Part shown: in pieces, positions 1,272 to 38,375 of the stretch
Layout: each line of letters opens with the position of its first letter
How positions within the stretch are numbered: position 1 is the stretch's first letter
From: Pedobacter sp. Bi126
GTDB lineage: Bacteria; Bacteroidota; Bacteroidia; Sphingobacteriales; Sphingobacteriaceae
NCBI RefSeq assembly: GCF_918698245.1
Contig: NZ_CAKKMS010000008.1
Span: 62,001 to 126,000, forward strand
Direction of reading: 5' to 3'
Length of the DNA stretch: 64,000 bases
Notes under the pieces: generated by a model
Databases searched by the model: none
The model's input: the letters and a program-made list of their open reading frames with translations, nothing else
What the model was told of the DNA's origin: nothing
Position numbers and translations under genes: made by a program

Positions 1272-1556
1272 CTAATCCTTCTTCTGACTGTATTTTTTCC
1301 AGGTTTCTATTTTGGCCTTCTGACGGGCAATATAGGCATCAGCAATTACTTCAGCCGAACTCGAGCCTTCAACCGTTTCCAGCAGTTCCTTTAATTTATA
1401 CTGATCTACATCTGCCTTATATAAGATCTGGATCAGTTTTGGAAAGTCGTTATCAATTAAATAAGCAAAGGCATCAACCAATGCATCGCGCAACTGATTA
1501 TCAGAAAGATGATCTGGTATATCGAAATCTTTGTTGATGATACTAATTAATGACAT
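1272..1556 (-). CDS. Hypothetical protein, 94 aa
   Basis: A small soluble protein, mostly helical, with an acidic N-terminal half and a charged C-terminus (KKYSQKKD). It has no Cys, signal peptide or membrane segment. It converges on the membrane-protein gene with only ten bases between the stop codons. Its mixed amino-acid content and normal start (ATG at 1556) support a real gene. I do not recognise a functional domain. Confidence 0.65.
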   Translation of the reverse strand: MSLISIINKDFDIPDHLSDNQLRDALVDAFAYLIDNDFPKLIQILYKADVDQYKLKELLETVEGSSSAEVIADAYIARQKAKIETWKKYSQKKD

Positions 1557-1650
1557 AGAATTAGGATTTTTTGGGATTATAGGATTTTAGGATCAGGGCT
1601 TTAAGATTACCTTTTTTATGCGCTTAACCAAGAACCACAGGCCAAAATTA

Positions 1651-1775
1651 AATAAACCTGATAATAGCGGCAGGTCCCGATTTAAGTACTATATTTTGTC
1701 TTTTATTTATGGTGTGCTTGCTTGTTTCACAGGTTTCATCGGGACTATAGCGGTTAGCAGGACTGAAGAGGCCAT
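1651..1775 (+). repeat. Dispersed intergenic repeat, copy A
   Basis: This segment, in an otherwise gene-free stretch (1557-1888), has a near-identical copy in the opposite orientation at 38073-38213. The two share a run of more than 40 identical bases (around 1709-1752). Within copy A, GTCCCGAT (1674-1681) is an exact inverted match to ATCGGGAC (1738-1745), so the centre can fold as a long hairpin. The flanks AAACCTGAT and GCAGGACTG recur in a third, diverged copy at 21421-21515. No coding frame runs through it. Confidence 0.75.
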
Positions 1776-1888
1776 GGAATAGGGATCTTTCGTTTTCAAA
1801 ATTATAATGGAGTTACTAACCGCTTTAAGATCCCTGCATGCGCGAGGATGACGGTATCGAAAACTAAATTCATCTTCCGTTTAATCTA

Positions 1889-2296
1889 TTATATCCATTT
1901 AATTTCCTGGCAGATCTCAATCAGTACGCCATTGGTATCTTTTGGATGTACAAAACACACCATTTTATTGTCTGCACCCTTTTTTGGCGACTCGCTGAGC
2001 AATACAAAACCTTCCTTATGCAGCCGTTCCATTTCTGCCAGGATATCATCAACCAGAAAAGCGACATGATGAATCCCCTCTCCTTTTTTTTCGATAAATT
2101 TAGCAATTGCACTATCTGGAGCCGTAGCCTGCAGCAGTTCGATCTTGTTTTCGCCAGTTTTAAAGAAAGCCGTATTTACAAACTCGGATGCAACTTGCTC
2201 AGTTTTATAGCAATCGGTATTCAATAGTTTCTGATAAATATCTATAGAACTGTTAAGGTCTTTTACCGCGATGCCGATGTGTTCTATCTTATTCAT
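1889..2296 (-). CDS. mce: Methylmalonyl-CoA epimerase
   Basis: A 135-residue vicinal-oxygen-chelate protein, the usual length for this enzyme. It interconverts (R)- and (S)-methylmalonyl-CoA between the mutase and propionate metabolism in the cytoplasm. The N-terminal HIGIAV motif (H6), EL at 53-54, HHVAF at 76-80 and GVLIE ending at E127 fit the family's metal ligands (His, Glu/Gln, His, Glu). It stands alone and diverges from iscS. Other VOC proteins such as glyoxalase I are possible, but the overall sequence is typical of Bacteroidota epimerases. Confidence 0.88.
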   Translation of the reverse strand: MNKIEHIGIAVKDLNSSIDIYQKLLNTDCYKTEQVASEFVNTAFFKTGENKIELLQATAPDSAIAKFIEKKGEGIHHVAFLVDDILAEMERLHKEGFVLLSESPKKGADNKMVCFVHPKDTNGVLIEICQEIKWI

Positions 2297-21306: not shown

Positions 21307-21420
21307 CTCTTACCACTTCTCCCATAAAACAAGAGCCTGGTTGGCGGATGAAAGGGCTAAGCAGGGGCCATTCTTATCTATGGGCGGGATGAAGGGCTTG
21401 AGTCTCTTGCACGGGCCCAT

Positions 21421-21515
21421 CTTAAATAAACCTGATTGACGCGGAAACCAAAAGCTTTTTCTGCTTTTGTTGGAGCAAAAGCAGGACTGAGGCTGCCAAA
21501 AGAACTGTCCATACA
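21421..21515 (+). repeat. Dispersed repeat, copy C (diverged)
   Basis: It shares the flanks AAATAAACCTGAT, AGCAGGACTG-like and GCCAAAAGAACTGT with copies A (1651-1775) and B (38073-38213, complement). The centre is different: CCAAAAGC...GCTTTTG forms its own hairpin. The 70-residue open frame on the minus strand here is not credible as a gene. The stretch 21068-21700 holds nothing else but this and the palindrome before it. Confidence 0.5.
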
Positions 21516-21700
21516 TTTCCAAATCATAAGACCCTAAAAAATATTGCAGTTTGCGTAAAAAATAAACTGTGACCGCTACAAGCCTTAACTTAATGTGATT
21601 AAAACTAAATTATCACATCAATTTTTAGGATATTTGCAATCCGGCATATATATTTTATGCCATTGCCGAATATTACAACAACATATACTTTATTACAATT

Positions 21701-38023: not shown

Positions 38024-38072
38024 AGAAAGCGTTGCGAGCCAAATATAACTAGTGTATTTATTGTGACTGGGA

Positions 38073-38213
38073 AATGAACAGTTCTGTGTGCTTGGCCGTC
38101 TGCAGTCCTGCCATTCGCTATAGTCCCGATGAAACCTGTGAAACAAGCAAGCACACCATAAAAAGCGAAAAATAGTGCTTAAATCGGGAGCTGCCGCTGC
38201 TGTCAGGTTTAAA
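38073..38213 (-). repeat. Dispersed repeat, copy B
   Basis: Read on the minus strand it repeats copy A (1651-1775), including more than 40 identical bases over ATGGTGTGCTTGCTTGTTTC and beyond, and the GCAGGACTG end. It also shares the GAACTGTTCAT edge with copy C. It lies in the gene-free stretch 37951-38415. Confidence 0.75.
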
Positions 38214-38260
38214 CACAAAGTTGGTGCACCCTGCAACCTCAAAAATGAAAAACTGCCCTA

Positions 38261-38375
38261 GCCATTTAGCCCCGGTTGCAGCGCTACCCTGCAGCGAGGA
38301 GGTACGACGAAGCGAAGCGTAAAAGCGAAAGACGGGAGGAAACTTCCTGTTCTATACAGGTTTTGCGCTCCGATT
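38261..38375 (+). repeat. GC-rich intergenic repeat
   Basis: Next to copy B lies CTAGCCATTTAGCCCCGGTT..., with GCAGCGAGGAGGTACGACGA and GACGGGAG inside. It is much richer in GC than the surroundings. I recognise the style as a common Sphingobacteriaceae intergenic element from memory only; there is no second copy in this window. Confidence 0.4.

Follow-up and report, generated by a model that had tools for sequence, protein, structure and literature searches.

Flavo-1 (Rfam RF01705) was described in 2010 by comparative genomics in Bacteroidetes, as probably an RNA and not cis-regulatory (PMC2864571). Its Rfam entry carries the type 'Gene; sRNA' with function unknown, and the available text of a review names the family in its treatment of the most abundant small RNAs (PMC9029176), so that its status as RNA or DNA affects many annotations. 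In the transcriptome of Flavobacterium psychrophilum, the accessible part of the report places Flavo-1 sense or antisense of transcribed regions with no preference, and many copies in none (PMC9723704). Our search of the literature on Flavo-1 and RF01705, whose scope mostly excluded subscription papers, found no account of Flavo-1 as a DNA repeat. To this known family we add a tip that is swapped at orthologous sites and a pattern of base pairs that appears to fit DNA better than RNA.

Three dispersed copies in the window (the whole 64,000-nt stretch of DNA analysed), designated A, B and C, are related members of Flavo-1, a known hairpin family. With default settings, Rfam gives no match in the window; the identification comes from a permissive Rfam scan of eight loci. 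Copies A, B and C match the model at 24.2 bits (1650-1768), 33.0 bits (38100-38214) and 35.3 bits (21424-21492), respectively, all below the cut-off of 42. Each aligns with the model end to end, leaving 56, 50 and 0 tip bases unshown, respectively, and two loci with exactly the same frame ends exceed the cut-off (L040, 53.9 bits; L038, 42.4 bits); the best score in the source genome is 67 bits. By BLAST, copies A and B share 87% identity across query bases 3-124. Whether copy C belongs with them, or only two copies exist, was the point on which the original prediction could have failed; copy C shares both the frame, AAACCTGA...GCAGGACTG, and the Rfam family. The features are as follows.

1628..1800, plus strand: copy A, whole element, delimited by orthologue conservation in 11 genomes and composed of 5' outer part, frame, centre, frame and 3' outer part ending TTTTCAAA.
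1654..1765, plus strand: copy A, frame plus centre (AAACCTGA...GCAGGACTG), from the pattern and the Rfam match.
1683..1734, plus strand: copy A, tip insert, which makes the loop 51 bases longer than in the nearest orthologues, whose tip reads CCCGATTCTTCATCGGG.
38067..38230, minus strand: copy B, whole element, with probable outer limits drawn from the 3' signature CATTTCC and the 5' outer part rather than from orthologues.
38103..38210, minus strand: copy B, frame and long centre, the latter with a tip insert like that of copy A, from the pattern and the Rfam match.
21405..21523, plus strand: copy C, whole element, ending ACATTTCCAAA, with probable outer limits.
21428..21489, plus strand: copy C, frame and short centre hairpin AAAAGC..GCTTTT, a centre kept in the relative G030.
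1272..1556, minus strand: 94-aa ORF on one side of copy A, used as orthology anchor.
1889..2296, minus strand: 135-aa ORF flanking copy A opposite the first, also an orthology anchor, a putative protein of the glyoxalase/methylmalonyl-CoA epimerase type.

The element originally proposed stands, its length of about 125 bases does not: those bases are the middle only, and conservation around copy A runs from about 1628 to 1800.

Both genes flanking copy A can be placed at 21 loci (the source genome included), 12 of which carry the frame between them and 9 none. An alignment of 11 of the 12 frame-bearing loci (alignment A2, omitting the more divergent L103), with region borders set post hoc once the alignment had been inspected, gives mean pairwise identities of 0.41 for the left flank, 0.65 for the 5' outer part, 0.85 for the left frame, 0.41 for the centre, 0.83 for the right frame, 0.69 for the 3' outer part and 0.30 for the right flank. 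Among these 11 genomes the centre is no better conserved than the flanks, and the conserved ends extend about 20-35 bases past the Rfam model. Other hairpins form the centre at this locus in G029, G020, G007 and G008. The base of Flavo-1 is fixed at a given site and its tip is exchanged between species, which bears out, at orthologous sites here and in the comparison with G030 below, the idea of a dispersed family in which the frame is conserved and the centre replaceable. Upstream of copy A (window 1557-1620) lies a run of AGGATTTTTAGGATTA-like units, of which G026 has several tandem copies (L094 intergenic region).

Two main readings of the family compete. In the one we hold somewhat more probable than all the others together, Flavo-1 is a dispersed intergenic DNA hairpin element with a constant lower stem and outer ends, whose free tip takes insertions and replacements. 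In the other, which we judge rather unlikely, it is a structured small RNA present in many copies, whose constant core binds something and whose peripheral stem-loop varies; its Rfam type, the entry as probably RNA in the table of the discovery paper (PMC2864571, available text) and the retention of position and outer ends in 11 genomes all speak for such an RNA. Since the element at the copy A locus is conserved and its intergenic flanks are not, site-specific selection may act, a point against the DNA hairpin.

Copy A as a BLAST query gives 43 matches at E up to 10 in the source genome (6.29 Mb). The exact ends AAACCTGA..GCAGGACTG, 30-60 bases apart, occur 23 times compared with 0 for a reversed-pattern control; the search ends derive from copies picked by eye, and this control and the Rfam model serve as independent checks. 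With the model, the genome has at least 91 matches at E up to 10, at least 87 at E 0.01 or better and at least 58 over the cut-off, an undercount because scoring covered 150 of 1394 first-look candidates and the list lacks copies A and B. A control search at E up to 10 yields matches in 10 of 14 control genomes, over the cut-off in none of the 14. At E 0.001 the family is found in all eight same-genus genomes (15 to 97 matches each), in 0/4 others of the class and in 0/14 controls, and at E 1e-7 in at least 49 of 198 sampled genomes of the class, with at most 22 candidates scored per genome.

The element is roughly 120-175 bp long, dispersed and intergenic. Its lower stem consists of eight pairs in an alignment of 46 of the 57 copies collected from the source genome (alignment A1), which leaves out five copies with centres over 112 bases, three odd-ended ones (L056, L057 and L081) and three near-duplicates (L061, L068 and L083). 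The stem comprises CCTG/CAGG, one T-A pair, one pair that covaries freely and a block of 2 bp (AGCG/AGCG), with conserved purine mismatches among them; the block also occurs as AATG/AATG or AACG/AGTG with pairing preserved. The freely covarying pair (columns 54/143) reads U-A in 15 copies, G-C in 13, A-U in 10, C-G in 7 and G-U in 1, and is never broken. In copies A and B the long centre consists of a short CCCGAT..ATCGGG hairpin whose tip is extended by about 50 bases. Beyond the model, a 3' end of type CTTTCCAAA is common to many copies, about 25-36 bases past GGACTG; similar ends occur in copies of G168, and several distant genomes end in AGCTCC instead. Among the Rfam matches, L056, L057, L081 and L210 have altered ends (GCATGAGGGATAGC, GCGTTAACGATGG) with 3' ends to match and may form a subfamily that differs in its base. 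A hint of pairing between the outer ends (flank columns up -9/down +12, z 5.9, the best of 2,250 column pairs) is blurred by indels, and RNAalifold finds no outer helix on the copy A orthologues; we do not claim one. Inspection by eye gave no consistent match to a Bacteroidota promoter motif beside the element, or to integron attC sites.

The lower stem of the Flavo-1 consensus, with its covariation, recurs in these copies. In A1, 97.0% of 368 cells are paired compared with 75.0% in shuffled alignments, changes on both sides of a pair number 80 against a shuffled mean of 20.6, and the covariation score is 0.573 against 0.135 shuffled and 0.03-0.15 in slid controls; none of 500 shuffles reaches either the paired fraction or the covariation score. 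Weaker counts are six pairs with two-sided change (reached by 21/500 shuffles) and 15 further pair types (65/500). A1 was assembled from copies chosen by their ends plus the best Rfam hits, the latter favouring Watson-Crick pairs, and the four outermost pairs (48-51/146-149) are fixed by the search ends in 23 of the 46 copies, the other pairs being free. Both the strong covariation and the mismatches conserved in the core favour a small RNA, and a lower stem of isolated pairs among conserved purine mismatches, as in structured RNAs, tells against a DNA hairpin.

The kind of pair change points the other way. As a criterion of our own, which is not a definition of the family, sense-strand RNA helices tolerate G-U and not A-C pairs. 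G-U occupies 3 of the 368 cells of the eight core pairs, and the four core pairs free of the search pattern (184 cells) comprise 171 Watson-Crick, 2 G-T, 2 A-C and 9 other combinations. In the tips of the source genome's copies, where 50 of 56 distinct centres contain a helix and G-T and A-C were scored alike, 440 pairs comprise 419 Watson-Crick, 8 G-T, 7 A-C and 6 others; the excess of G-U over A-C expected of a structured small RNA is absent, unlike in tRNAs of the same genome, where 300 acceptor- and T-stem pairs (25 distinct tRNAs from 30 loci of 50 tRNA matches) comprise 272 Watson-Crick, 27 G-T, 0 A-C and 1 other. The Fisher p values for tip helices against tRNAs, 2.5e-4 and 1.2e-5, are guides only because copies are not independent and copying between them could yield the same pattern; few G-U pairs could likewise arise if pairs change by such copying rather than by stepwise mutation. 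Twenty distant copies (257 Watson-Crick pairs, 0 other) carry no weight, being top-scoring hits biased to perfect pairing. Judged on these counts, pair changes in Flavo-1 seem to fit DNA palindromes better than RNA.

Gene context shows no preferred orientation of the element. Of 57 copies collected, 54 have both neighbours called (ORFs of at least 90 aa) and 52 of these are intergenic, between tandem genes in 29 cases, convergent genes in 13 and divergent genes in 10; between tandem genes, 18 copies lie opposite to the genes and 11 on the same strand. Hairpins in intergenic positions would suit a cis-acting mRNA element, such as an attenuator, terminator or UTR element, and we rejected that reading, which we regard as very improbable, on this random-looking orientation. 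The lack of a preferred orientation also counts against a small RNA, as do dozens of copies per genome, many of them outside transcribed regions in F. psychrophilum (PMC9723704, accessible part). We favour the DNA hairpin repeat over RNA because G-U is scarce despite strong covariation and the intergenic copies lie in any orientation.

Comparison with the relative G030, which is 92% identical to the source genome over 1.7 kb around copy A, shows how the tip changes. Thirty-four of the 46 loci queried could be placed; reading the alignments, we judged the element retained at 23, half or decayed at three (L047, L066 and L069) and absent at eight (L005, L031, L041, L052, L055, L058, L062 and L071), where a script threshold called L066 present and L007 uncertain and left L039 and L064 unscored. 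Five of the 23 retained loci have an altered centre (L007, L039, L045, L064 and L004), and copy A is a further case. Between the source genome and G030, L007 differs in the presence of the tip insert, L045 by a short hairpin versus a long one with a repeat starting GTCATGCTGAGGCACGAAGC, and L064 by a CTTTTTG..CAAAAAG hairpin with a GTCATTCTGAGCG-type repeat versus one of the CCCGAT..ATCGGG type; at L004 inner pairs are swapped on both arms. Half copies are broken in or near the tip (L047 and L066, in both of which the surviving half ends near the tip, and L014). None of the 34 loci offers a clean empty site with a target duplication, a point against the DNA hairpin; at loci without the element the intergenic sequence is mostly replaced altogether, which makes a duplication unreadable. 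In two comparisons (L041/L152 and L032/L170) the element-free allele retains the last bases of the element (CTTTTCAAA-like), which a deletion and a target site fit equally.

The long tip insert recurs elsewhere. The pattern GCTTGCTTGTTTCACAGG occurs 13 times in the genome with up to two mismatches and four more times with three, compared with two in all for the reversed control. Eleven of the 13 lie inside Flavo-1 frames, among them L014 with its 5' half only, and the remaining two, in other repeats (L013 and L011), likewise occupy the loop of a CCGAT..ATCGG hairpin. L005 is one more Flavo-1 copy with such an insert, shortened and not matched by the pattern. Insertion targeted to the CCGAT..ATCGG loop, or exchange through the shared arms, would fit this distribution.

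Further repeats lie in or beside the copies. The tips of L064, L066, L067 and L078 contain all or part of a GTCATYCTGAGCGTAGTCGAAG-type palindrome, which looks like the CGTC-tagged REPs in the available text of PMC3733652. A second palindromic repeat, TTTCGGTCGGTGAGACACCAACCGATAG, follows several copies within their tandem units (L049 1401-1460 and 1601-1660; L019 1190-1230 and 1580-1620). Several copies, among them B (window 38230-38350), L019 and L049, are preceded by about 150 conserved bases (CTTCCCGTTTTTCGCTTTTACGCTTCGCT...GGGGCTA...CATTTCATTT), perhaps a degenerate neighbouring element.

High copy number, intergenic position, a hairpin and clusters both tandem and inverted would also characterize a mobile repeat of the REP type that a RAYT/IS200-like Y1 transposase mobilizes in trans, a reading we consider improbable. 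Some clusters are tandem duplications: at C1:1085043-1085623 four matches alternate in orientation, with two pairs 352-353 bases apart. The copies most alike are neighbours at 94% (L060/L061 and L074/L083), and, the L060 group aside, no two separate sites match better over more than 100 bases than A and B (87% over 123 bases), which indicates little recent hopping and weighs against such a repeat. In its favour, L068 is 88-91% alike to L060/L061 on a different contig over 227-259 bases that extend beyond the element; with both near contig ends, this likeness may reflect either recent movement or adjacency across a gap in the assembly.

The transposase link raised originally finds no support in this genome: none of its four Y1-type transposase-like genes has a Flavo-1 frame within 1.5 kb, and the nearest copy noticed lies 1.6 kb from the Y1 gene at C7:102700, a point for the REP-type reading. 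Among 198 genomes sampled from the class, 140 have a Y1 match, somewhat more often with Flavo-1 (41/49) than without it (99/149; p 0.03, uncorrected for relatedness, and presuming the same 198 genomes in both searches, as the handles agree), again in favour of that reading. Eight Flavo-1-positive genomes lack a Y1 match at E 1e-5, which argues against it, the more so as some have many copies: 18 Flavo-1 matches at E 1e-7 in G210, a same-genus genome with a completeness rating of 100%, and 21 matches in G044; weaker Y1 relatives could escape at that threshold.

Returning to the DNA hairpin, the base would fold when single-stranded, during replication or under supercoiling, and some protein would read the folded base; the lack of a partner found for it counts against this proposal. 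The tip, exposed and unread, would be prone to breakage and insertion and would accept other palindromic repeats by insertion or replacement, leaving a replaceable centre, and the frame itself may once have spread as a mobile repeat. In a fuller form, offered tentatively, Flavo-1 would be a DNA site and not an RNA, folding as a single strand for a protein to read and kept at its sites across species; its tip would be a landing pad for palindromic repeats that replace one another, and the tip insert, about 50 bases long, would be a miniature element in its own right that enters CCGAT/ATCGG-type loops, as suggested by its occurrence in loops of that kind both in Flavo-1 and in two further repeats. 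A base that is kept while its tip is swapped would be a natural record of palindromes breaking and capturing other repeats, and with a count of G-U against A-C the choice between RNA and DNA can be tested in many genomes from sequence alone.

Compared with the described systems, the window copies share with Flavo-1 RNA (RF01705) the core, the alternating pairs, the variable tip, the occurrence in Bacteroidetes and the many copies per genome. They differ in scoring 24-35 bits, below the cut-off, in having, at the copy A locus, conserved ends that reach beyond the model and, in A and B, in long tip inserts that are unshown bases outside the model positions. MITEs, defined in the available text of PMC3733652 as dispersed, non-coding and 70-300 bp long, resemble Flavo-1 in these respects, whereas incidental inspection revealed no terminal inverted repeats of 15-30 bp in Flavo-1, and the 34 loci compared with G030 no target duplication. 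REP/BIME sequences of the GTAG and CGTC families are, like Flavo-1, short intergenic palindromes present in high copy and in groups. A replaceable centre in a conserved frame is not quite as unusual among REP-like elements as the original prediction held, given published REPs with variable loops or inside longer palindromes (PMC3733652, available text) and a family already named Flavo-1. By contrast with these repeats, no GTAG or CGTC tag was seen by eye at the Flavo-1 ends AAACCTGA and GCAGGACTG, no RAYT gene is linked to it, and Flavo-1 is longer, with a complex, mismatch-rich base.
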